Shown in pieces: positions 4,596 to 61,566 of a stretch of DNA of 64,000 nucleotides. Below the pieces are notes generated by a model that was given only the letters and a program-made list of their open reading frames with translations, had not been told where the DNA came from and searched no databases. The position numbers and the translations under genes were made by a program. Every line of letters starts with the position of its first letter. Position 1 is the stretch's first letter. This stretch comes from Fulvivirgaceae bacterium JP3-4. GTDB lineage: Bacteria; Bacteroidota; Bacteroidia; Cytophagales; Cyclobacteriaceae. Location of the stretch: positions 620,001 through 684,000 of the forward strand of contig JARKND010000005.1 in the NCBI GenBank assembly GCA_029309925.1, given 5' to 3'.

Positions 4596-5060
4596 TCAGC
4601 GCAGACGGTCAGAGTCCCGCACGAGTTTTTCATCGCGCCTGATGAAACGGTTTGCCAAAAGATTACACAGCACAGCAGCACCTGGCAGCCAAAGGCCAAG
4701 GCCGTACACACCACCCTGAAATTCCTTTGTCAATTGGTTGGAGAATATAACAGCCGATGCAATTGTGCCGGCTATAAAGAGTGAATTCAGTGCACCCAGT
4801 TTCATTTGCAGTATGCGATTCCGGAATTTACCGATCTCAATAATAGCAATCGTAATTGCCGCAATGGCGAGGATAGCCGTTAAGGAATACGGGAAATATT
4901 GTGTGTTGGCTGTTTCACCCTGCTTCACCGTGTAGTGAAGGGCATATAACTGATGCGATTGCCCTGCACTGTCCTGGTAAACCCAGATGGGAAGGAAAAT
5001 TGATGCCAGTAAGCTGATGATGGCGATGACCAGAAATACAGTTTGAATTCTTTGCCACAT
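4596..5060 (-). CDS. DUF4293 family membrane protein
   Basis: Small integral membrane protein of 154 residues starting MWQRIQTVFL, a hallmark of the Bacteroidota-specific DUF4293 family. Four hydrophobic segments are seen at about 6-26, 58-76, 86-106 and 118-136, with a charged C-terminal tail. No biochemical role is established for the family. It is convergent with the preceding barrel gene and divergent from the thiolase gene. Confidence 0.85.
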   Translation of the reverse strand: MWQRIQTVFLVIAIISLLASIFLPIWVYQDSAGQSHQLYALHYTVKQGETANTQYFPYSLTAILAIAAITIAIIEIGKFRNRILQMKLGALNSLFIAGTIASAVIFSNQLTKEFQGGVYGLGLWLPGAAVLCNLLANRFIRRDEKLVRDSDRLR

Positions 5061-5166
5061 GTTGGTGTTAATTTAACTTGCCGCTTTGGTTTGGATACTA
5101 ACGCGTGGCGCAAAACTAAGGAATTGATTGAATCTTCGCGCCCGAATAAAGGAAAACTGACAATTT

Positions 5167-6360
5167 ATGACTTCTGCCTTTGTTGTTGATATTGTAAGAA
5201 CACCAATCGGGAAATATGCCGGGGCCTTGTCTGGCGTACGCCCGGATGATCTGGCCGCACATGTCATCATGGCGCTGATGGAGCGCAACAAGAACTTTGA
5301 TGCTTCCATCATCGAGGACGTAGTGTTTGGCGCTGCAAACCAGGCTGGTGAAGACAACCGAAACGTTGCGCGAATGGCTTTGCTGTTGGCCGGACTCTCG
5401 AAGGAAATTGGTGGCGTGACAGTCAACAGACTCTGTGCTTCGGGATTGCAGGCAATCATGGATGCTTCGATGGGAATCATGACCGGCAATGGCTCAGCGT
5501 ATATCGCGGGTGGTGTGGAGAGCATGAGTCGCGCGCCTTTTGTGATGGCCAAAAGCGATGAAGCGTTTTCGCGAAAGTCGGAAGTTTATGATACGACCAT
5601 CGGCTGGCGATTTGTGAATTCAAAGCTTTCAAAACTCTACCACCCATACAGCATGGGCGAGACTGCTGAGAATGTTGCAGAAAAATGGAACATATCCCGC
5701 TCCGCCCAGGATCAGTTTGCGTTTAATTCGCAGGCAAAATATCAAAAGGCGTTTGCAGCGGGAAAATTCAAAAACGAAATCACACCGATCACAGTGATGA
5801 AGGGCAAGGAATCGCTTGCTGTTGAAAAGGATGAACAACCCCGCGAAAGCTCACTGGAAAAACTTGCTTCCCTGAAGCCGGCTTTCAAGGAGGGAGGATC
5901 TGTCACTGCCGGAAATTCTTCCGGGATCAATGACGGTGCAGCTGCAGGGTTGATCGTGAGCGAAAATCTGCTTCGCGAACAGAATTTAGAGCCGATGGCA
6001 CGCGTAGTCTCGATGGCCGTTGCCGGTGTCGATCCGGCTTATATGGGAATAGGGCCTGTGCCTGCAACACAGAAAGCGCTGAAACGCGCGGGCCTCACGG
6101 TTAAGGATCTCGGGCTTGTCGAACTGAATGAAGCATTTGCATCTCAGTCCCTCGCCTGTATCAAAGACCTCGGGCTAAATCCTGATATCGTGAATGTAAA
6201 CGGTGGGGCTATCGCAATAGGTCATCCTCTCGGCTGCAGCGGTGTGCGCATCAGCGGAACCCTTCTGCATGAATTGAAAAAAAGAAATGTAAAGTACGGG
6301 TTAGCTACGATGTGTATCGGTGTTGGGCAGGGAGCAGCTATTATCTATGAGAACGTTTAA
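5167..6360 (+). CDS. acetyl-CoA C-acyltransferase (thiolase)
   Basis: Thiolase of 397 residues that cleaves 3-ketoacyl-CoA (beta-oxidation or aromatic degradation) or condenses acetyl-CoA. The nucleophile is C90 in NRLCASGLQ; H353 lies in GHPLGCSG and the second catalytic Cys is C383 in MCIGVGQG. The N-terminus resembles PcaF/FadA-type degradative thiolases. No other beta-oxidation gene is adjacent, so the exact substrate is open. The start ATG fits the family N-terminus (xxAFVVDxVRTPIG). Confidence 0.93.
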   Translation: MTSAFVVDIVRTPIGKYAGALSGVRPDDLAAHVIMALMERNKNFDASIIEDVVFGAANQAGEDNRNVARMALLLAGLSKEIGGVTVNRLCASGLQAIMDASMGIMTGNGSAYIAGGVESMSRAPFVMAKSDEAFSRKSEVYDTTIGWRFVNSKLSKLYHPYSMGETAENVAEKWNISRSAQDQFAFNSQAKYQKAFAAGKFKNEITPITVMKGKESLAVEKDEQPRESSLEKLASLKPAFKEGGSVTAGNSSGINDGAAAGLIVSENLLREQNLEPMARVVSMAVAGVDPAYMGIGPVPATQKALKRAGLTVKDLGLVELNEAFASQSLACIKDLGLNPDIVNVNGGAIAIGHPLGCSGVRISGTLLHELKKRNVKYGLATMCIGVGQGAAIIYENV

Positions 6361-23093: not shown

Positions 23094-23118
23094 TTGGCAC
23101 ACCGATTTAATACAATAG
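23094..23118 (+). promoter_or_regulatory. conserved promoter-like block of RNA candidate 1
   Basis: GTTGGCACACcGATTTAATA is almost identical to the block before RNA candidate 2 and has identical spacing (25 bases) to the conserved GTCAGTCTTATACA. TTGGCAC with TTTAA 12 bases further on recalls a sigma-54 -24/-12 promoter, though the -12 GC is missing. An alternative reading is TTG-17-TACAATAG as a poor housekeeping promoter. Confidence 0.45.
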
Positions 23119-23270
23119 GTCAGTCTTATACATAGGAGTCTTTAATATCCTCACGGACCTTAAATGCTCTTAACTGTCGGGATCATACCCGCAGCCCTTT
23201 TAGGATCATACCTGAAAGTGTTTTGTAAGATCAATTAGAGAGGTCTCCTTGGAGGGCTCTCTTTTTTTTT
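23119..23270 (+). ncRNA. structured RNA candidate 1 (paralogue of 24208-24356)
   Basis: A sequence of about 150 bases without coding potential that matches a second copy 1.1 kb away. Shared order: GTCAGTCTTATACA; hairpin 1 (TTTAATATCC/GGACCTTAAA around loop TCAC); hairpin 2 (CTGTCGGG/CCCGCAG); hairpin 3 (AGG/CCT around ATCATA) followed by GAAAGTGTTTTGTAA-GATCAA; and an intrinsic terminator (AGAGAG/CTCTCT plus nine T). Stems are kept while bases differ between the copies, which argues for RNA structure. It does not look like tmRNA, RNase P, SRP RNA or a 6S rod. No gene follows in the same direction, so it is more likely a free small RNA than a leader. Confidence 0.55.
23237..23270 (+). terminator. 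terminator of RNA candidate 1
   Basis: AGAGAG (23237-23242) pairs with CTCTCT (23257-23262); the inside folds further as CTCC/GGAG; nine T follow. Confidence 0.75.
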
Positions 23271-23330
23271 GGATGCATGGGCAAGAACTAACGTTGAGAG
23301 ACACCTTTTATCGCATTACATTGAAGTTGT

Positions 23331-23480
23331 ACCATCGCGCTCATTGCGCCATCGCGGTAAAGGCGAGTAGATGTACCAAGACACTCATATCGGGCGACAA
23401 ATTTTTTAAGTTTGGAACTTCGTACCATATCTTCTTTACAGCACCGTTTTTTTCCGCTAACGCAGATGACACTATGAACA
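23331..23480. repeat. partial copy of the TGCACTCA-bounded element
   Basis: Contains the core seen at 51256-51438 and 32701-32890: ...ATCGCGCTCATTGCGCCATCGCGGTAA..GCGAGTAGATGTACCAA.(A)CACTCATATC..GGCGACAA, then a T-rich stretch, ACAGCACCG and CGCTAACGCAGATGACACTATGAA. Both terminal TGCACTC/GAGTGCA ends are degraded or missing. A 100-codon open frame that crosses it is considered spurious. Confidence 0.55.
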
Positions 23481-23491
23481 TTGTGCGGATA

Positions 23492-24110
23492 TGTTCGGCT
23501 TTAGCCGGTCGCGGCCGTGCCCCCGACTTAAGTCGGTGGTTATTGGAATGACAACGTGCTTCAAATCACTTTAGAGTTTGTCGGCTAAAGCCAACGACAG
23601 TTCAGTTCTTGGATTTGATTTCTTTGGGTTTTCTATCGATGGAAATGTGCCGTTTAAAATCGTGTCGTCTCTTCGTTAGAATTTAATGTCAGCTGCCACA
23701 CTTTGTTCGGCTTTAGCCGATGGCGGCCGTAGCCCCCGACTTAAGTCGGGGGTTATTGGAATGACAACGTGCTTCAGATCAGTTTACGGTGTCGGCTAAA
23801 GCCAACGACAGTTCAGTTCTTCGATTGGATTTCGTCTGGGTTTTCTATCGATGGAAAATGTGCCGTTTAAAATCGTGTCGTCTCTTCGTTAGAATTTAAA
23901 GTAATGTCAGCTGCCACAGTTTGTTCGGCTTAGCCGGTGGCGGCCGTAGCCCCGTTCTAATCTTCATCCTCTTTCTTGCGATCAGTTTGCGGGGGTTATT
24001 GGAATGACAACGTGCTTCAAATCACTTTAGAGTTTGTCGGCTGAAGCCAACGACAGTTCAGTTCTTCGATTTGATTTCGTCAGACGAAGAGGAAAATAAC
24101 CTGCGAGCCA
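23492..24110. repeat. tandem array of three REP-like units
   Basis: Three direct repeats begin with TGTTCGGCTTTAGCCG at 23492, 23704 and 23932 (steps of 212 and 228 bases). Each holds CGGCTTTAGCCG, GGCGGCCGTAGCC, a 20-bp palindrome of the CCCCCGACTTAAGTCGGGGG family (23520-23539 with one mismatch, 23733-23752 perfect), GTTATTGGAATGACAACGTG, TCGGCTAAAGCCAACGACAG and a CGATTTGATTTCGTC-type tail. In the third unit the palindrome core is replaced by about 40 unrelated bases. No transposase is nearby; such elements are usually moved in trans by RAYT (TnpA-REP) proteins. Confidence 0.75.
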
Positions 24111-24182
24111 CGCTTTGAGTAATTCCACAAATTTTTGAAGAGCGAACGTCCATTCAGTCGACAATTTTTAGTGCACTTGGCG

Positions 24183-24207
24183 TTGGCACACAGATTTAAT
24201 ATAACAT
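24183..24207 (+). promoter_or_regulatory. conserved promoter-like block of RNA candidate 2
   Basis: GTTGGCACACaGATTTAATA, matching 23093-23112 apart from one base, again 25 bases before GTCAGTCTTATACA. See the matching block at 23094 for the possible sigma-54-like and housekeeping readings. Confidence 0.45.
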
Positions 24208-24356
24208 GTCAGTCTTATACAGATGAGTCTTTAATCTCCTTCGGGAATAATTAAATACTCATCCTTGCTGGCCTCGCAGCCGGCTACTCTTCTGGGTTCA
24301 CACCCGTAAGTGTTGTAAAGGATCAAAAAGGCTCTCCTCGCGAGAGCCTTTTTTTT
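24208..24356 (+). ncRNA. structured RNA candidate 2 (paralogue of 23119-23270)
   Basis: Second copy of the RNA candidate. Hairpin 1 has GAGT-TTTAAT-TCC/GGA-ATTAAA-ACTC around a TTCG tetraloop; hairpin 2 is GCTGGC/GCCGGC; hairpin 3 is GGGT/ACCC around TCAC, followed by GTAAGTGTTGTAAAGGATCAA; the terminator is GGCTCTC/GAGAGCC plus eight T. Compared with copy 1, hairpins 2 and 3 and the terminator stem have changed sequence on both sides while staying paired. A 65-codon open frame on the other strand across the region is a shadow. Confidence 0.6.
24330..24356 (+). terminator. terminator of RNA candidate 2
   Basis: Perfect 7-bp stem GGCTCTC (24330-24336) / GAGAGCC (24342-24348), five-base loop, eight T. 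One of the strongest terminators in the window. Confidence 0.85.
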
Positions 24357-24362
24357 ACCCTT

Positions 24363-24525
24363 ACCCCTAAATCCCCTGAAGGGGACTTTGGCAATTCGTA
24401 GTGATTTCGCAGGAATTTGAACTTGCACGCATTCGTAAACGGTTTCAGTTTCGTTATCCCATCAGCAGCGTGAACTTTAATTTCAATGCTGCATCTAAGT
24501 CCCCTTTAGGGGATTCAGGGGTGGG
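24363..24525. repeat. fold-back element with CCCCTAAATCCCCT arms
   Basis: The left arm (24363-24391, ACCCCTAAATCCCCTGAAGGGG...) and right arm (24494-24525, AGTCCCCTTTAGGGGATTCAGGGGT) are inverted complements around a 100-base loop. Each arm contains an internal CCCCT/AGGGG mini-hairpin. It separates RNA candidate 2 from the convergent GH172 gene; the same arm type appears at 39556-39686. Confidence 0.6.
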
Positions 24526-25714: not shown

Positions 25715-25849
25715 AGCTGTTTTTGTTTTGGATCAATGAAGTTATTCAATTGCCTTCACTTTTCGACATACAGCGGTTGAGTTTCGTTTTGTATGCCCGG
25801 GGGTTTGATTGGCGTGACAAAAAATTTCACTTATATTCGATATACTCCA

Positions 25850-53835: not shown

Positions 53836-55662
53836 TCATTTCATTTTAACCAGCGAAGCATCGTACAGTTGCTTGTGGGCTGCCTGTAATTTCTCCTCAG
53901 TCATCTTCACAACCTTGCGATCGTACGTCATCAAGCCGTTCGTTTCAATTTCAACATCGGTAGTTTGTGTGTACACCGCTGCCGAAAGGCCCTGACGGAT
54001 CAGCGCAGGAATCGCATCCATAAAAGTTGTGTACTTGTTCAGCAGTTCTTCTTTGTTAGGAAAGCTCTGGTATCCCCAGTTGTCTTTGCTCTGCCACGTG
54101 TGTCCTTCGAGTGGAAGACCCAGCCCGCCAAATTCCCCGAGCACCACAATCTGCTCCCTGCCATACAAGTTTGGATCAGGCATGCAGGGCGCTGGATAGT
54201 TGTGAAGGTCGATGATATGTCCCGTGACCTCGAAGTTTCCGCCACTTGCAGAATTCACAAGACGTGAAGGGTCATAGGCCATCGTCCATTCGGTGATCTC
54301 CTTCGTCTTGAACTGTCCCCAGGCTTCGTTGAACGGAACCCACACAACGATGCTTGGAAAAGTTTTGCGTGAGTCGATGATTGCCTTCCATTCTTTTTTG
54401 AAGATTGCTTCTGACTCGGGTGTGCGCTCTTTGTCATTTGCAATGCCGATGATACCCGGTCTGGAGTCCCATCTGTTCCCCATGTCTCCGCTCGGCATAT
54501 CCTGCCACACCAGCATACCGAGCTGATCGCAGTGATAATACCAACGCGCAGGTTCGACTTTCACATGTTTGCGGATCATGTTGAAACCCATCTCTTTTGT
54601 TTTTACGATGTCGAACTTCAGGGCTTCATCCGTTGGAGCGGTGTACAAGCCATCGGGCCACCAACCCTGGTCGAGGGGACCGTACTGGAAAACAAATTCA
54701 TTGTTGAGCAGCATGCGCTGGATGCCATTTGCATCTTTCTGCATGGAGATTTTTCGCATGCCGAAATAACTTTTCACATCGTCAATAACCTTTCCGTTGC
54801 GTACAAGCTGGATCTGCAGATCATACAGAAACGGGCTCGATGGCGACCAGAGTTTTGCGTTCGGAATCGAAAGCGTTACAGTTTCTCCTGCAACTTCCTG
54901 TTCGGCTACTTTTTGTTTTCCATCCCAGGCGGAGACTCGGATCTTATCACCTTGCTCAGCATTTTTCAACACAGTGCTTATGCTTACGGAACCTTTGTCG
55001 ATGTCCGGCACCGGGTTCGCGCTTTCGATATACGATTTGGGTACCGCTTCGAGCCAGACCGTTTGCCAGATGCCGGTCACGGGAGTGTACCAGATGCTGT
55101 GTGGATTTTTGATTTGTTTGCCTCGCGGCTGCGGGCCATCGTTGCTGGGATCCCAAACACTTACAACAACTTCCTGCTGCTTTGATTTGCTGAGAAGGGA
55201 AGTGATGTCCAATGAAAAAGGATCGTAGCCGCCCTCGTGTCTTCCGGCTGACTTTCCGTTTACAAAGACTTCACACCGCCAGTCTACTGCCCCGAAGTGG
55301 AGCAGAACAGTTTTATTTTTTGCATCAGCCGGAGCGGAGAATGTACGTTTGTACCACAGGGTATTGTCTTTTCCAACTGTTTTTCCGACACCTGACAATG
55401 TTGACTCGATGGCGAACGGCACCAGGATCTTGCCCGCATAGGCCGAGGGTTGTTCATTGCTTATCGCATAGTCCCAGAGCCCGTTGAGGTTGGTCCAGTT
55501 GGGGCGCACCAGCTGCGGCCTCGGATACTCTGCGTGAACGCTGGCGGGGTTTACCTTGCCGGCCCATTCTGTTGTAATTTTTCCTTCGACAGGTTTCCAC
55601 TCCTGTGCGGAAAGGTTTGTAGTGAATAAAATGTAAGAGAAAAGTAAGACTACTTTTTTCAT
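53836..55662 (-). CDS. glycoside hydrolase family 2 (beta-galactosidase-like)
   Basis: Secreted 608-residue GH2 enzyme with signal peptide (cleavage near NLSAQ-EW), sugar-binding domain (about 30-200), immunoglobulin-like domain and TIM barrel. The acid/base is E446 in VPFNEAWGQ, the nucleophile E510 in VLGEFGGLG. Shorter than LacZ (1024) and without its C-terminal domains. Operon with galM and galK supports action on beta-galactosides, though beta-glucuronidase or arabinosidase activity cannot be excluded. Confidence 0.9.
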   Translation of the reverse strand: MKKVVLLFSYILFTTNLSAQEWKPVEGKITTEWAGKVNPASVHAEYPRPQLVRPNWTNLNGLWDYAISNEQPSAYAGKILVPFAIESTLSGVGKTVGKDNTLWYKRTFSAPADAKNKTVLLHFGAVDWRCEVFVNGKSAGRHEGGYDPFSLDITSLLSKSKQQEVVVSVWDPSNDGPQPRGKQIKNPHSIWYTPVTGIWQTVWLEAVPKSYIESANPVPDIDKGSVSISTVLKNAEQGDKIRVSAWDGKQKVAEQEVAGETVTLSIPNAKLWSPSSPFLYDLQIQLVRNGKVIDDVKSYFGMRKISMQKDANGIQRMLLNNEFVFQYGPLDQGWWPDGLYTAPTDEALKFDIVKTKEMGFNMIRKHVKVEPARWYYHCDQLGMLVWQDMPSGDMGNRWDSRPGIIGIANDKERTPESEAIFKKEWKAIIDSRKTFPSIVVWVPFNEAWGQFKTKEITEWTMAYDPSRLVNSASGGNFEVTGHIIDLHNYPAPCMPDPNLYGREQIVVLGEFGGLGLPLEGHTWQSKDNWGYQSFPNKEELLNKYTTFMDAIPALIRQGLSAAVYTQTTDVEIETNGLMTYDRKVVKMTEEKLQAAHKQLYDASLVKMK

Positions 55663-55693
55663 TTGGCGTTTGGTTTAGTTCTTAATGGAAATC

Positions 55694-55775
55694 CCGTGTT
55701 CCGGGTTCCGTGTTCCGAGTTCTGCCCATGAGCAAGATTTAAGTAACCCGAAACGCTGAACCCGACACCCGGAAG
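55694..55775. repeat. fold-back element with TTCCGGGTTCCGTGTT arms
   Basis: The left arm (55694-55722) consists of degenerate GTTCCGxGTTCCG units and the right arm (55744-55775, AACCCGAAACGCTGAACCCGACACCCGG) of their inverted complement, around a 21-base loop. It lies between galM and the GH2 gene inside the presumed operon, so the mRNA would carry a large hairpin there. Confidence 0.6.
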
Positions 55776-55781
55776 TTTGAA

Positions 55782-56957
55782 TTACTTCGTTGAGAAAGTA
55801 TAGATCGTCTGTGTGCGATAGGTTTCTCCGGGGCGAAGGACGACCGGAGGAAAACTTTTTTGATTTGGAGAATCCGGGAAGTGCTCTGTCTCGAGACACA
55901 AGCCGTAACGCTTTTTGTAAACCGTGGAATATTTTCCGGTGATGCTGCCGTCAAGGAAATTGCCGGAGTAAAATTGAATTCCGGGCTCACTTGTCTTCAC
56001 GCTCATTACGCGGCCTGACGCGGGGTCATGAAGGGTTGCCGCAACTTTTGACGTATCGCCCCCGGTGTTTAACACCCAGCAATGATCGTAGCCAAGCCCG
56101 AACTCCAGTTGCTGATCCTTTTTGTCGATGCGTGAACCAATGGCAGTCGGAGTTTTGAAATCAAACGGAGTCTCTGATACATTTTTCAGTTCTCCTGTCG
56201 GGATCAATGTTTTGTCAACCGGAACAAACTTATCTGCGTTGAGGTAGAGTTCGTGGCTCAGTATATCGGCTTTCGAATTCCCGCTAAGGTTAAAATAAGT
56301 GTGTTGCGTAAGGTTGATGATGGTTGGCTTGTCGGTTGTTGCCTCATAGAAGATTTTCAGTTCATTGTTGTCAGTGAGGTGATAGATCACCTGCGTGGTA
56401 AGGTTCCCGGGATAGCCTTCCTCCATGTCTTTACTTATGTAAGACAGTTTGAGCGCAGCGCCATTGTCTACGGCATGTTCTTCAATGTTCCAGAATCGCT
56501 TATCGAATCCGTTGGGCCCACCGTGCAAACTGTTGCCGTTGTTATTCTGCGCAAGCTGGTATGCTTTTCCGTCAAGTGTGAATTTTCCTTTTGCTATCCT
56601 GTTTCCATATCGGCCTATGAGCGCGCCAAAGTATGGGCTGCTCTTCAGGTACCCTGACAGTGAGTCGTATCCGAGGACCACGTCTTCCAGGTTTCCATTT
56701 TTATCAGGGGCAGTAAGCGATGTGATGATTCCACCATAGTTCATCACTTTCATGGTCATGCCGTTGGCGTTGACCATGGTGAAAAGTGAAACCGGGGTTC
56801 CGTCAGCAAGTTTGCCGAACGGTGTGGACGCTACGCGAGCCTTCGATTCTACACGAGTGGTGTCAGCCATTGCCTTGTCCTCCGTTTTATTCGATTTGCA
56901 TTGTACAAAAACTAGTGACGTGGCTCCGAGGAGCAAGACGAGAAATCGTTGTTGCAT
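55782..56957 (-). CDS. galM: galactose mutarotase (aldose 1-epimerase) lipoprotein
   Basis: Interconverts alpha and beta anomers of galactose. 391 residues, with a lipoprotein-like signal ending FVQC (C20), so it is probably periplasmic, unlike the cytosolic E. coli GalM. Motifs NGNSLHGGPNGFDKRFW, the catalytic-His segment TQHTYFNLSG, and the C-terminal GLCLETEHFPDSPN with the catalytic Glu. It starts 18 bases after galK. Confidence 0.93.
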   Translation of the reverse strand: MQQRFLVLLLGATSLVFVQCKSNKTEDKAMADTTRVESKARVASTPFGKLADGTPVSLFTMVNANGMTMKVMNYGGIITSLTAPDKNGNLEDVVLGYDSLSGYLKSSPYFGALIGRYGNRIAKGKFTLDGKAYQLAQNNNGNSLHGGPNGFDKRFWNIEEHAVDNGAALKLSYISKDMEEGYPGNLTTQVIYHLTDNNELKIFYEATTDKPTIINLTQHTYFNLSGNSKADILSHELYLNADKFVPVDKTLIPTGELKNVSETPFDFKTPTAIGSRIDKKDQQLEFGLGYDHCWVLNTGGDTSKVAATLHDPASGRVMSVKTSEPGIQFYSGNFLDGSITGKYSTVYKKRYGLCLETEHFPDSPNQKSFPPVVLRPGETYRTQTIYTFSTK

Positions 56958-56975
56958 ATAGATTTAGTTGGATGG

Positions 56976-58154
56976 TCATTTTGAAACGGAGGCTGTTGAT
57001 AGCACACTGGTGCCGTCTTTGATCTTTACACGGTAAGCCGGCATATCAATATTGAATTTCTCCTTATAGGCTTTTGTGAGTGTTTCAATAACTTCATCGG
57101 CATCATCTTCTAACAGGATGTTAATCGTACATCCACCGAAGCCACCACCCATCATGCGCGCGCCCAGCACTTTGCCTGTTTTCTTTGCTTCATCAACAAG
57201 AAAATCCAGCTCCTTACAACTTACCTGGTATAATTCGGAAAGGCCTTTGTGTGTTTCGTACATTTTTTTTCCAAAAGCGGTCAGGTTTCCGGCTTCAAGA
57301 TCCCGGGTCGCTGCCTGGACGCGTTGGATCTCCGAGACAACGTAGAAGCAACGGTCGAATACCTTACCCTTCAATTCATTGCGGTGTTTTTCAACTGCTT
57401 CCAGTGGCACATCGCGAAGGCTTTGGATCTCCGGGTAATGTTTTTTCAGAATGCGAACACCTTCTTCACATTCTGCCCTGCGCGTGTTGTATTCCGAGTC
57501 TACCAGAGCATGCTTTACCTTCGTATCACACAATATTATTATGTGCTCAGAAAGATCGATTGGTGCATACCGGTGTTTCAGTGAACGACAGTCAAGCAGT
57601 ATGACGTTATCTTCTTTGCCCATCACACTGGCATACTGATCCATGATGCCACATTTGACGCCCACGTAGTTGTGCTCTGCCCATTGCGCCATCGTCACAA
57701 GTGTCAGTCGCGGGATGTTAAAGTTAAATAATTCGTTAAGCGCAAATCCGAATCCGCACTCAAGTGCTGCCGAAGATGACAGACCTGATCCGGTTGGAAT
57801 GTTGCCGCCAAAAACGCAGTTGAAAGGTTTCACGGTGTGCCCATGCTGGTGGATCTGAAATAGAACTCCTAGCAGATAGTTGGCCCATCCGGGTTTATTT
57901 ACCTTCGAAATATTCTGAAGATCGACCGAGATGTGCTGGTCGAAATCAAGCGCATAGATCTTTGAATCCGAGGAGTCGCTCGGCCCGATCGCGAACACAA
58001 TCTCCTTATTGATTGCGGCCGGCATCACAAACCCATCGTTGTAGTCAGTGTGCTCACCGATCAGGTTGATCCGGCCAGGCGAACGCACCAGTTGCGGCTC
58101 GGAATTAAAAAGTTCTATAAAACGCTCGCGTATTTTTTGTGTCAAAGCATCCAT
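56976..58154 (-). CDS. galK: galactokinase
   Basis: First committed step of the Leloir pathway: galactose to galactose 1-phosphate. GHMP kinase of 392 residues: substrate signature GRINLIGEHTDYNDG, ATP motif PTGSGLSSSAALE, and C-terminal GARMMGGGFGGCTI. First gene of the galK-galM-GH2-GH127 operon. galT and galE are not in the window. Confidence 0.96.
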   Translation of the reverse strand: MDALTQKIRERFIELFNSEPQLVRSPGRINLIGEHTDYNDGFVMPAAINKEIVFAIGPSDSSDSKIYALDFDQHISVDLQNISKVNKPGWANYLLGVLFQIHQHGHTVKPFNCVFGGNIPTGSGLSSSAALECGFGFALNELFNFNIPRLTLVTMAQWAEHNYVGVKCGIMDQYASVMGKEDNVILLDCRSLKHRYAPIDLSEHIIILCDTKVKHALVDSEYNTRRAECEEGVRILKKHYPEIQSLRDVPLEAVEKHRNELKGKVFDRCFYVVSEIQRVQAATRDLEAGNLTAFGKKMYETHKGLSELYQVSCKELDFLVDEAKKTGKVLGARMMGGGFGGCTINILLEDDADEVIETLTKAYKEKFNIDMPAYRVKIKDGTSVLSTASVSK

Positions 58155-58158
58155 ATAA

Positions 58159-58187
58159 AAAACCTAGAGGCACAAAACGTGCGCCTC
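58159..58187 (-). promoter_or_regulatory. hairpin with T run directly before galK
   Basis: GAGGCAC (58167-58173) pairs with GTGCGCCTC (58179-58187, one bulge). On the minus strand the hairpin is followed by TAGG and six T, and the galK ATG begins four bases later. It can end transcription coming from yihY, or, if part of the galK leader, act as an attenuator or mask the start. Confidence 0.5.
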
Positions 58188-58243
58188 GCAACGACCTTAG
58201 CTAAAGTGGGGATTTAAAGCTATAAAAAAAAGTTTATGATCGC

Positions 58244-59239
58244 TTACACGGCCTGCTGTTTCTTCAGCCGGTATTTCCGGGCTTTCCACAGTGCCTCATT
58301 CCGGATGGCCTCGTGAATGGACGCGTTGATTTCATAGCCGATCAGCAACACAACAGTGATCAGCTGGATCCATACCATCAGTGCAATCAGCACACCGATC
58401 GAACCATACACTTTGTTATAGGTGCCGAAGTTTGTGACGTAAAATGAAAATCCGTAAGAGACTGCGAGCGCAAGCAGCGTGGCGATGAGCGAACCGATGG
58501 AAAAGAAACGCCAGTTGTAATGAATGGCCGGTCCGAAATAGTAAATGGTGCTGATGGCGAGAAAGAAAACAATAAAGATCACAATGAATCGCAACGCGAA
58601 GATCAGGCTGACGGTGAAGCCATCGAGATCAATCAAATCAAACTCGCGCATGTGCTGCAACAGATATTCCATCACTAGCTGGCCGACAACAAGAAGGAGA
58701 ATAGCCAGGAAAAGCACAATCGTCATGTTAAGCGTCAGTCCCGTGGCAATCAGCCTGGTCTTTAATCCGCTGCGGTTTTCGATAGTCTTGTAACATGAAT
58801 TGAATGCACGCATCAATGCCATCATCCCGTTGGTAGAAAGATACATGGCAAAAAAGAAACCCAGGGTGAGGAGTCCGCCACGTTGATTGCTGACGATGTC
58901 GAGCACGGTTGTAGAAACAACTTCATACGTGTCAGAGGGCACGAGGTCCTTCATAAACAGCATGATGCTCTCCGTGTTGATGTCAGGAAAGTAATGCGAT
59001 ACGTAAGGGATGAGTGTGAAAAGGAAAATGATAGCCGGGAACGTTGCAAGGATGAAATTGAAGGCAACACCATTTGCACGGTCGATGATCTCATCATCCT
59101 CAAGGTTCCTCACAAAAACTTTAAAAATTTTATACAGCGAAACACCTTCGTGTTTGCGAAAACGGATCTTGCGCATCCACGTGACAAACAGCCACACGGG
59201 ACTCCATTGAAGAACGAATTTTTTGTGCTTGTACTTCAT
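58244..59239 (-). CDS. YihY/BrkB family membrane protein
   Basis: 331-residue inner-membrane protein with about six helices (near 65-85, 115-135, 155-180, 205-225, 240-260, 270-295). The YihY family was once thought to be RNase BN but has no RNase activity; its role is unknown. The start overlaps the thioesterase stop by four bases (ATGA). Third gene of the mltG-thioesterase-yihY operon. Confidence 0.88.
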   Translation of the reverse strand: MKYKHKKFVLQWSPVWLFVTWMRKIRFRKHEGVSLYKIFKVFVRNLEDDEIIDRANGVAFNFILATFPAIIFLFTLIPYVSHYFPDINTESIMLFMKDLVPSDTYEVVSTTVLDIVSNQRGGLLTLGFFFAMYLSTNGMMALMRAFNSCYKTIENRSGLKTRLIATGLTLNMTIVLFLAILLLVVGQLVMEYLLQHMREFDLIDLDGFTVSLIFALRFIVIFIVFFLAISTIYYFGPAIHYNWRFFSIGSLIATLLALAVSYGFSFYVTNFGTYNKVYGSIGVLIALMVWIQLITVVLLIGYEINASIHEAIRNEALWKARKYRLKKQQAV

Positions 59240-59643
59240 TGAAAATAGGGCGCCAAGACATTTAGCATCGCTTCAGGAGGACGACACGGCCTGTTTGTCT
59301 TGCGGTCAATAAACACCAGTATCGTCTCGCCTTTATGGATCAGCGTATTCGTTTCATTGAAAATTTCGTATTCAAACCGGATTCTTGCACCTGGTTTTTC
59401 ACGAAGGGTTGTTACAATCCGCAACAGGTCGTCATATCGGCCGGGAGCAATGAACCTTGAATGATTTTCCAGCACCGGCATCATCACACCCATGTCTTCG
59501 AGCTCCTTGTAACTTAAACCAAGTTGCCGCAGGCTTTCCACGCGGGCAACTTCGTAGTACATCGCGTAGTTTCCGTAATAGACATACCCCATCTGATCAG
59601 TTTCTCCATAGCGAACGCGGATGTAGGTCTCGGACGTGTACAT
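59236..59643 (-). CDS. acyl-CoA thioesterase, 4HBT/YbgC family
   Basis: Hot-dog-fold thioesterase of 135 residues. VRYGETDQMGYVYYGNYAMYYE carries the conserved Asp (YbgC/4HBT position) and the helix that follows. Substrate probably short- or medium-chain acyl-CoA. It begins one base after the mltG start region ends (TAC/CAT boundary at 59643-59645), and overlaps yihY. Confidence 0.9.
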   Translation of the reverse strand: MYTSETYIRVRYGETDQMGYVYYGNYAMYYEVARVESLRQLGLSYKELEDMGVMMPVLENHSRFIAPGRYDDLLRIVTTLREKPGARIRFEYEIFNETNTLIHKGETILVFIDRKTNRPCRPPEAMLNVLAPYFQ

Positions 59644-59644
59644 G

Positions 59645-60706
59645 CTACTTGTTTTGCTCTGCTCGTCTGCGTGCCTGCCCGATCTTGATTTCGCGCTCCA
59701 GCGCCCGCTGGTATTTGATCGCGTTGTTCATGTGCTGCTTGTAGCTGTTGGTAAAGTTGTGATTGCCGGAGAAATCTTCCTTTGCACACATGTACAGGTA
59801 ATTCGTATCAGCATGGTTGAGCACAGCATCTATCGACCGGATCTCAGCCATATTGATTGGCCCCGGTGGAAGCCCCGCATTTTTATAAGTGTTGTATGGA
59901 GAATCGATTTCCTTGTGTTCATTCAGCACGCGCTTCAAACTAAAATCCCCCACAGCGAATACAAGAGTCGGGTCGGCCTGAAGTGGCATTCCCTGCTTGA
60001 GGCGATTCAAATATAAACTTGCAATGATCGGTGCCTCTTCTTTCTTAACCGATTCAGCCTGAACGATAGAAGCAAGGATAGAGACTTCAATTGGTGTCAT
60101 GCCCAGCTTGTCTGCCTTGGCCTTCCGGTCAGCATTCCAGAAATTTTTGTACTCACCATACAAGCGCTCGATCACTTCTTCCGGGCTCGACTGATAATAC
60201 ACCTCGTAAGTGTTTGGAATAAACATCGTGAGGACATTGTCTTTGTTGAATCCATACTTGTTCGTCATCGCGAACTGCACCAATGCCGCTTCGAACTCAG
60301 CAGGTTTCATCAGGAGGTTCTTTGTGATTTTTTCACTCAGTTCGGAAATCAGTCGAACGTTGTTGAACGTAATTTTTACCGGTTCCTGTTCTCCGGAACG
60401 AAGCAGGCGGATAGCCTGGAGGTTGGTCATGTTCGCACGTAAAACGTAGCGGCCGGATTTTATGCTCTTGTCGTAATCCATCAGTCGCGACAAGAAACTG
60501 AATGAGATCAGGTCCTGGACGATATCCTGCTCGTGCAGAATTCCCTGAACGTCCTTGAATGAAGCGCCACGCGGAATAATGATCTGCCGGTCTTTCTTTT
60601 GCACCAGCACATTAGGAGTATAACAAATCTGGTAAGCGTAGAACGCAAACGAGATCATCAGAATGGAAATCAGCAGAAAAAAGATCAGCCTCTTCGAAGG
60701 TTTCAT
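59645..60706 (-). CDS. mltG: endolytic murein transglycosylase MltG
   Basis: Cuts nascent glycan strands and thereby sets their length. 353 residues with one N-terminal membrane helix (about 8-27), LysM-like part (IIPRGASFKDVQGIL), and YceG domain with the catalytic Glu E218 in SIVQAESVKKEEAPIIASLYLNRL, and LQADPTLVFA plus SPYNTYKNAGLPPGPI. Heads the operon with the thioesterase and yihY. Confidence 0.94.
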   Translation of the reverse strand: MKPSKRLIFFLLISILMISFAFYAYQICYTPNVLVQKKDRQIIIPRGASFKDVQGILHEQDIVQDLISFSFLSRLMDYDKSIKSGRYVLRANMTNLQAIRLLRSGEQEPVKITFNNVRLISELSEKITKNLLMKPAEFEAALVQFAMTNKYGFNKDNVLTMFIPNTYEVYYQSSPEEVIERLYGEYKNFWNADRKAKADKLGMTPIEVSILASIVQAESVKKEEAPIIASLYLNRLKQGMPLQADPTLVFAVGDFSLKRVLNEHKEIDSPYNTYKNAGLPPGPINMAEIRSIDAVLNHADTNYLYMCAKEDFSGNHNFTNSYKQHMNNAIKYQRALEREIKIGQARRRAEQNK

Positions 60707-60907
60707 ATTTTAAGTCTATCGTATCACGACACAGTCGCAGCGTTTATCAGACGATTAAAGTGCTGTTTTATTACAGCGCATCGCGGAAATCGTGAGCACG
60801 CGATCTCGTGTACGGGTTTTGCGTGTTAAAATTAAATCAAAAAATCTCTCAAGAATACTAAGTTTTAATGAATCAACAGACGCATATGTTGATTTGGTTC
60901 TAATTTA

Positions 60908-60926
60908 GTGCAATAAATAATTGCAC
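60908..60926. promoter_or_regulatory. inverted repeat upstream of the YrdC-family gene
   Basis: GTGCAAT-AAATA-ATTGCAC is a perfect 7-bp inverted repeat ending 13 bases before the ATG at 60940. A TAATTTAG just upstream (60901-60908) resembles a -7 box, so the repeat would lie at the start of the transcript or serve as an operator. Only a candidate. Confidence 0.4.
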
Positions 60927-60939
60927 ATTAACGACAAGT

Positions 60940-61566
60940 ATGGCTGCGGAACTGCTGAAGATTCATCCGGGTAATCCGGAAATGCGAAAAATCGAACGGG
61001 TGGTTGCGAAATTGCGACAAGGTAGCATTGTTATCTATCCGACCGACACCATTTACGGTATCGGCTGCGATCTGTTTAACAAAAAAGCAGTAGAGAAGCT
61101 TTGCCAGATCCGCGGCATAAAACCGCAGAAGCTCAACCTCTCGTTCATCTGTTCTGACATCAGCCAGATTTCGGAATACGTTAAGCGCATTGAAACACCT
61201 GTCTTTAAAATTTTGAAGCGTCACCTGCCCGGACCGTATACATTTATTCTGGAGTCAAGCTCGAAGGTGCCGAAGGTGCTGGATGTAAATAAAAAAACCG
61301 TTGGGATTAGAATTCCCAACCACGCCATACCTCAGATGATTGTGCAGTCGCTGGGAAATCCGATTATTACGTCATCAATAAAAGATGATGATCAGATTAA
61401 AGAATACACCACCGATCCCGAAGAAATTTACGAAGACCTGAAGAACGTGGTTGACGTTGTGATCGATGGCGGGATCGGGGGAAATATTCCCTCCACCATT
61501 ATTGACTGCACGAAAGATGAGCCGGAAATTATTCGTCAGGGACTCGGTGAGTTCGATGCAGCCTGA
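60940..61566 (+). CDS. L-threonylcarbamoyladenylate synthase (YrdC/Sua5 family)
   Basis: First step of t6A modification of tRNA: makes threonylcarbamoyl-AMP from threonine, bicarbonate and ATP. The 208 residues cover only the YrdC domain ([18 protein letters not shown], [21 protein letters not shown] nucleotide site, [12 protein letters not shown], and VGIRIPNH), lacking the Sua5 C-terminal domain; YciO-type paralogues share these features, so activity is likely but not certain. Its last 31 bases overlap the opposite lipoprotein gene. Confidence 0.88.

Follow-up and report, generated by a model that had tools for sequence, protein, structure and literature searches.

A candidate family of sibling trans-acting small RNAs with a cloverleaf fold in the genus Chryseosolibacter

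Introduction

Sibling small RNAs (sRNAs) that are tied to sigma-54 promoters are known from another phylum, as Qrr and as GlmY/GlmZ, which are linked to Hfq or RapZ. The sigma-54 -24/-12 consensus reads TGGCAC-N5-TTGC, with GG and GC at fixed spacing. A different mode of action is represented by CsrB and RsmZ, RNAs that titrate an RNA-binding protein. To our knowledge, the structured sRNAs of Bacteroidota have hardly been mapped except in Bacteroides and Flavobacterium.

Within Bacteroides, the available part of the account of FopS describes a single-stranded 5' seed stretch followed by a terminator hairpin, 14 copies, and canonical sigma-ABfr promoters (PMC11697453). For Flavobacterium psychrophilum, the accessible part of a second report places promoters with a sigma-54 motif upstream of dnaK, htpG, groESL, and the putative regulatory RNA Rfp36 (PMC9723704).

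In this study, two similar intergenic RNA loci of a soil bacterium, referred to as RNA1 and RNA2, are described. Our hypothesis is that they are sibling trans-acting sRNAs of a family known so far from the genus Chryseosolibacter (Bacteroidota, Cytophagales) alone, a reading to which we assign a probability of roughly 60%.

Results

Two paralogous loci with a common upstream block

The initial annotation had proposed two paralogous, terminator-ended RNA candidates with a common upstream block and an identical spacing of 25 bases between the start of the block and a shared motif. These proposals were borne out in the window, i.e., the whole stretch of 64 kb that was analyzed. The block TTGGCACAC-N-GATTTAATA occurs at exactly two places, and no third place was found in the window even with up to three mismatches (shuffles average 0.04). 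The shared motif GTCAGTCTTATACA starts at 23119 and 24208, both 25 bases past the block start. The main features are the following.

23094..23112, + strand: promoter-like block 1, TTGGCACACCGATTTAATA (TTGGCAC-ACCGA-TTTA-ATA), a candidate -24/-12 element
24183..24201, + strand: promoter-like block 2, TTGGCACACAGATTTAATA (TTGGCAC-ACAGA-TTTA-ATA)
23119..23270, + strand: RNA1, proposed transcript of ~150 nt with a predicted 5' end, based on paralogy, fold, and a homologue in C. histidini
24208..24356, + strand: RNA2, proposed transcript of ~149 nt with a predicted 5' end, on the same basis

A blastn search of the 5.81-Mb genome of origin with RNA2 as query aligned RNA1 at 71% identity over query positions 22–197 (E 3.4e-16). 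The same search returned no further strong copy, the next match having an E-value of 0.29, and a covariance model search of this genome retrieved RNA1 and RNA2 only.

The last gene of an RND efflux operon (HlyD-type, AcrB-type, and OEP proteins according to Pfam) is tolC-like, and the block of RNA1 starts 86 bases past its end. The start of the RNA2 block is 1,089 bases past that of the RNA1 block. Downstream of RNA1 lie repeats and then RNA2, which in turn is followed by a convergent DUF2961 gene. The repeats, at 23492–24088, comprise three copies of a REP-like unit of ~215 bases with palindromes such as CCCCCGACTTAAGTCGGGGG. Just past the RNA2 terminator, a 26-base inverted repeat (92%) was observed at 24363–24388 and 24497–24522, its arms 108 bases apart.

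Predicted fold of RNA1 and RNA2

Minimum free energy (MFE) folds were obtained for both RNAs and compared with 500 dinucleotide shuffles each. RNA1 reached -49.8 kcal/mol (z -4.3) and RNA2 -54.5 kcal/mol (z -6.3), with none of the 500 shuffles as low in either case. The first 112 bases of RNA1 and RNA2 gave a z of -4.1 each, with 0/500 and 1/500 shuffles as low. In these models, each RNA is a cloverleaf, in which a closing stem P1 encloses three hairpins, H1 to H3, and a terminator follows.

23123..23132, + strand: RNA1 closing stem P1, 5' strand GTCTTATACA (folds; compensatory changes relative to C. histidini)
23133..23172, + strand: RNA1 hairpin H1 (MFE fold, alignment)
23174..23194, + strand: RNA1 hairpin H2, hexaloop AUCAUA, absent in C. 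histidini (MFE fold)
23197..23218, + strand: RNA1 hairpin H3, hexaloop AUCAUA closed by GG/CC (MFE fold, alignment)
23222..23231, + strand: RNA1 closing stem P1, 3' strand TTTGTAAGAT, one mismatch in ten (folds; comparison with C. histidini)
23235..23270, + strand: RNA1 intrinsic terminator (MFE fold, sequence)
24212..24221, + strand: RNA2 closing stem P1, 5' strand GTCTTATACA (folds; comparison with C. histidini)
24222..24263, + strand: RNA2 hairpin H1, UUCG loop (MFE fold, alignment)
24267..24284, + strand: RNA2 hairpin H2, loop CUCGCA (MFE fold)
24289..24310, + strand: RNA2 hairpin H3, loop UUCACA closed by GGG/CCC (the MFE fold also pairs the two outer loop bases)
24314..24323, + strand: RNA2 closing stem P1, 3' strand TGTAAAGGAT, one mismatch in ten (folds; comparison with C. 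histidini)
24324..24356, + strand: RNA2 intrinsic terminator (MFE fold, sequence)

The two independent MFE folds match by alignment column on P1, H1, and most of H3. H2 is present in both, but one alignment column apart. P1, the 5' strand of which contains GUCUUAUACA in both RNAs, has 8 pairs in the MFE fold of RNA1 and 9 in that of RNA2, 7 of them in common columns; when extended, it spans ten columns with one mismatch in each RNA. The initial annotation had listed three hairpins and a terminator in the same order in both copies, as well as base changes on both sides of stems with pairing kept. The hairpins, both terminators, and the double-sided changes were recovered, whereas P1 had been overlooked.

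The 5' strand of H1 can also pair with the 5' arm of the terminator (RNA1 23133–23146 with 23233–23248, RNA2 24222–24235 with 24324–24336). The predicted energies are -9.7 kcal/mol for RNA1 and -10.3 kcal/mol for RNA2, values attained by 0.6% and 0.2% of shuffles, respectively. This pairing is absent in the C. histidini copy. A tRNA-like reading was dropped: ARAGORN reported no tRNA or tmRNA gene in the 64-kb window, and H1 is too long.

A third member in Chryseosolibacter histidini

A covariance model built from the RNA1/RNA2 pair (R1) was used to search 390 family genomes. At E ≤ 0.5, three family genomes besides the genome of origin gave a match. One of these, in C. histidini PWU4 (NZ_JAHESF010000008.1), is a further family member (E 2.6e-7), and the other two (E 0.09 and 0.36) were taken for chance. 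The C. histidini copy carries the block TTGGCAC-AGCGT-TTTA at the same distance to TCAGTC, followed by P1 (GUCUUCUUU/AAAGGAGAU), H1, H3 with GGGUCAUACC, and a terminator, while H2 is missing. Its unguided MFE fold contains P1 (9 pairs), H1, the upper H3 stem with its loop, and the terminator; the lower part of H3 pairs differently.

The covariation alignment comprises three sequences, two of which had served to build the model that all were fitted to, and hence leans to structure; the unguided MFE folds of RNA1, RNA2, and the C. histidini copy are independent of this lean. In the alignment, standard pairs fill 94.4% of 108 cells, and the fraction falls to 36–55% when partners are slid by 1–3 columns. 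The 6 unpaired cells among the 108 are distributed over P1 (3), H1 (1), H2 (1), and H3 (1). Double-sided changes were found in 6 of 38 pairs (3 in P1, 2 in H1, and 1 in H3), compared to a mean of 2.1 for shuffled alignments, none of 500 being as high. The initial annotation had named homologues with compensatory changes as a test of the proposed stems, and C. histidini provides one, as a single homologue that lends thin support.

In H3, the NUCAYA loop and the two closing G-C pairs are the same in all three sequences, and the pair just below is of three types (A-U, C-G, and G-C). Hairpins of the form GG-NUCAYA-CC occur twice in RNA1, in which GGAUCAUACC is found two times, and once each in RNA2 and the C. 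histidini copy.

Searches for further members and known families

The third Chryseosolibacter genome was without a match in the covariance model searches, so that the family was found in two of the three genus genomes (genome of origin included) by the searches run. In this third genome, a different gene, recognized by eye as GDSL-like, stands straight after tolC. Blastn searches covered the three genus genomes with RNA2 (genome of origin included) and 196 family genomes with RNA1. Four matches of 24–30 bases outside the genome of origin were rejected as chance; their surroundings showed neither a promoter block nor a similar RNA.

A second covariance model, which includes the C. histidini copy (R2), was run on 390 genomes of the order and 395 of the phylum. 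Outside the genome of origin, matches were returned in 13 order genomes (E 0.15–0.98) and 16 phylum genomes (E 0.013–0.73). Ten of these loci were taken further, and the nine alignments viewed were rejected as promoter-like AT-rich stretches or partial folds, one locus lying in a coding gene. These two runs scored 8 of about 15–107 first-look candidates per genome, so remote members can be missed; C. histidini, a true member, was missing from the matches in both runs, having been either not drawn or lost. Given this limited sensitivity, the restriction to the genus is a statement about the searches run. The covariance search of the aligned pair that the initial annotation had suggested thus led to the C. 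histidini member and to no other convincing one in the Bacteroidota samples.

A pattern scan of genome contigs gave eight stretches, of which C. histidini alone matches the model and the other seven do not. In viral contigs, at least 120 stretches carry the 14-base word, which is the chance level; 80 were tested with R2, none reaching E ≤ 0.1. A stricter pattern left 10 viral stretches, none of which matches R2 at E ≤ 1.

Searches against Rfam 15 gave no match at the gathering threshold in the 64-kb window. Between 23050 and 24400, only insignificant matches were obtained at E ≤ 10, the best being RF01859 with 24.9 bits against a cut-off of 55 (E 0.17). The C. histidini locus had no match up to E 5. 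The earlier impression that no Rfam family has such a layout is therefore upheld at threshold for both loci. Literature searches found nothing on a Cytophagales sRNA with sigma-54 or on RpoN in Cytophaga hutchinsonii, and nothing related on four-way-junction motifs in Bacteroidetes. Within Rfam 15 and the literature searched, the RNA family appears to be new; paired sibling sRNAs as a kind are already known.

Upstream block, sigma-54, and Hfq

TGGCAC-N5-TTTA stands upstream of the RNA in all three copies, with GG at -24 present and GC at -12 absent. Judged from its sequence, the odds that the block is a sigma-54 promoter are about even. The genome of origin encodes two RpoN proteins (PF04552, E 2.7e-56 and 2.5e-53); their genes were seen at two separate loci in this one Cytophagales genome. 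No similarity or activator site common to the regions upstream of the blocks was found.

Genome-wide, TGGCAC-N5-TTKM is not enriched (30 compared to 57 for the reversed control), and TTGGCAC-N5-TTT hardly so (21 compared to 15). Among the TGGCAC-N5-TTKM sites other than those of RNA1 and RNA2, 9 of 17 with TTTA, TTGA, or TTGC are located upstream of a gene and do not fall within a same-strand frame; the same is true of 2 of 11 with TTTC. This crude count is only suggestive of sigma-54 sites among the former.

Similar elements were observed before heat-shock genes. In the genome of origin, TGGCAC-AACCA-TTGA is found upstream of dnaK, and TGGAAT-N5-TTGA precedes htpG both there and in C. histidini (found by eye, sought after PMC9723704). 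The -12 part is thus TTTA in all three RNA copies versus TTGA before dnaK and htpG. By eye, CTGTCAA-N-CTG(A/T)CA was noted in front of the -24/-12-like sites of dnaK (genome of origin) and htpG (genome of origin, 2640–2680, - strand, and C. histidini); from its sequence, it may be an activator site for a heat-shock regulon. Three genes for MacB/FtsX-type permeases in the genome of origin have TGGCAC-N5-TTGA or TTGC beginning 42–49 bases upstream of the start codon; going by sequence, these may be sigma-54 promoters too.

Hfq (PF17209) was detected in none of the three genus genomes and in 5 of 14 control genomes. Within the detection range of the Pfam model, this makes an Hfq-type sRNA unlikely.

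Gene order in the two species

A tblastn comparison set the proteins of the window against 80 kb of C. histidini; gene names in it were assigned by eye, except for tolC and DUF2961. In both species, the RNA was found to lie within one and the same larger block of genes. A first conserved block extends from htpG to tolC, with the order kept apart from a local inversion at window positions 4596–6360. A second one, from 53836 to 61566, contains beta-galactosidase, galM-, and galK-like genes, among others. In C. histidini, the stretch from tolC to the beta-galactosidase gene is short, and the RNA adjoins the latter gene, which is convergent and lies 3' of it. The DUF2961- and GH78-like genes of C. 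histidini and of the window are only 34% alike and not necessarily orthologous.

RNA and tolC run in the same direction in both species, 86 bases apart here and 8 kb apart in C. histidini. From these sequences, the RNA may either have stayed in the region during rearrangement or have moved within it. Additional tolC loci were located via the TolC protein, and the sequence downstream was searched with unfiltered R2 in four genomes. No member was found in the third genus genome (3.4 kb) or the three others (about 19 kb, about 19 kb, and 2 kb), the best E-value being 0.22. One more genome with tolC was left out, as its contig ends 64 bases after the gene.

Discussion

Alternative explanations

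The main rival to trans-acting sRNAs, unlikely in our estimate, is that RNA1 and RNA2 are decoys, whose GG-NUCAYA-CC hairpin loops would titrate an RNA-binding protein in the manner of CsrB/RsmZ, with another motif. The constancy of the H3 loop and its two closing G-C pairs in 3/3 sequences, above a pair of three types, is what such a protein site would look like, as is the repetition of GGAUCAUACC in RNA1; moreover, the RNA is well folded and offers little single strand. However, the loop of RNA2 H2 is CUCGCA and C. histidini is without H2, which leaves only one or two motif copies per RNA, and the partner protein is hypothetical.

A cis-acting leader, i.e., a riboswitch or attenuator with an aptamer-like cloverleaf, the gene of which was lost or displaced, is improbable. 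The multibranched fold directly before a terminator would suit it, and so would the alternative pairing of H1 with the terminator arm in RNA1 and RNA2, as in an attenuator, but this pairing is not kept in C. histidini, Rfam provides no match, and none of the three loci has a same-direction gene directly 3' of the RNA. The initial annotation had noted the lack of such a downstream gene, which is correct for the neighbors: RNA2 is followed by the convergent gene, and only past it, at 25793, does another same-direction frame of at least 200 amino acids begin.

Slightly less probable still is that the two copies are relics of a mobile or repeated element and not functional RNAs. The three palindromic, REP-like repeat copies between them (about 23492–24088) and the differing position of the RNA relative to tolC in the two species would fit a relic. 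Only two copies of the RNA were nevertheless found in the genome of origin, no such repeat was seen by eye beside the RNA in 3.1 kb of C. histidini, and promoter spacing, stems, and terminator persist in both species, with compensatory changes.

A small-protein or dual-function gene is the least probable explanation, as the 24-codon ATG frame of RNA1 (23164–23238, MLLTVGIIPAALLGSYLKVFCKIN) meets an ATA in place of the ATG and a one-base shift further on in RNA2, and has no counterpart in the C. histidini copy. Frames of at least 12 codons differ among all three copies, and a leader peptide or dual-function reading was rejected on the frames. The statement of the initial annotation that no open frame fits was thus wrong in the letter for RNA1 and right in substance, since the frame is not common to RNA2 and C. 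histidini.

Proposed mode of action

As sibling trans-acting sRNAs, RNA1 and RNA2 would each be a separate transcription unit with a promoter of its own, possibly a sigma-54 -24/-12 promoter, with 5' ends near 23119–23122 (RNA1) and 24208–24211 (RNA2) and the 3' end at the terminator. Closure of the RNA at its ends would fall to P1 and the terminator. Both RNAs would act in trans without Hfq. Contacts with target mRNAs or, less likely, with a protein would be made by the short 5' tail and by the H3 loop NUCAYA, which is constant and sits on GG/CC.

More speculatively, and with a probability that we rate below that of the decoy, the RNAs could represent a new class of RNA in Bacteroidota that lack Hfq. 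Its members would be free-standing cloverleaves with a sigma-54 variant promoter (TTTA for TTGC/TTGA at -12, perhaps read by one RpoN paralogue) and a constant NUCAYA loop that recognizes an RNA-binding protein or start-codon regions. In the latter case, the loop sequence UCAUA would pair with U-AUG-A of start-codon regions. If true, the phylum would gain an RNA arm regulated by stress, in a setting where, Bacteroides and Flavobacterium aside, little is known of riboregulators.

The family is compact and testable, with a defined fold, two natural variants per cell, one homologue, and a candidate promoter. It lets one ask whether the Cytophagales stress response has a sigma-54-driven RNA arm, and what might substitute for Hfq.

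Comparison with known systems

BTnc231 (RF04180), a Bacteroides sRNA of similar length, gives a weak full-length alignment to RNA2; this alignment was put down to chance, as it scores 16.1 bits (E 2.3) where the cut-off is 80.4, and the opposite strand reaches 15.9 bits. The FopS model (RF04319) matched the locus on the minus strand only, with 17.6 bits against a cut-off of 56, and left the transcribed strand unmatched. Qrr and GlmY/GlmZ, compared through Rfam only, resemble RNA1 and RNA2 as sibling sRNAs, with a sigma-54 link that is a candidate one in RNA1 and RNA2, and have other folds. Rfp36 of F. psychrophilum is alike in being a candidate sigma-54-driven RNA of Bacteroidota, a likeness drawn from its description in the accessible part of the report (PMC9723704), with no relation claimed. 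FopS and GibS of Bacteroides share with the present pair that they are paralogous Bacteroidota sRNAs with an intrinsic terminator; in contrast to them, as far as the available part of their description goes, RNA1 and RNA2 combine a cloverleaf, two copies, and another upstream block.
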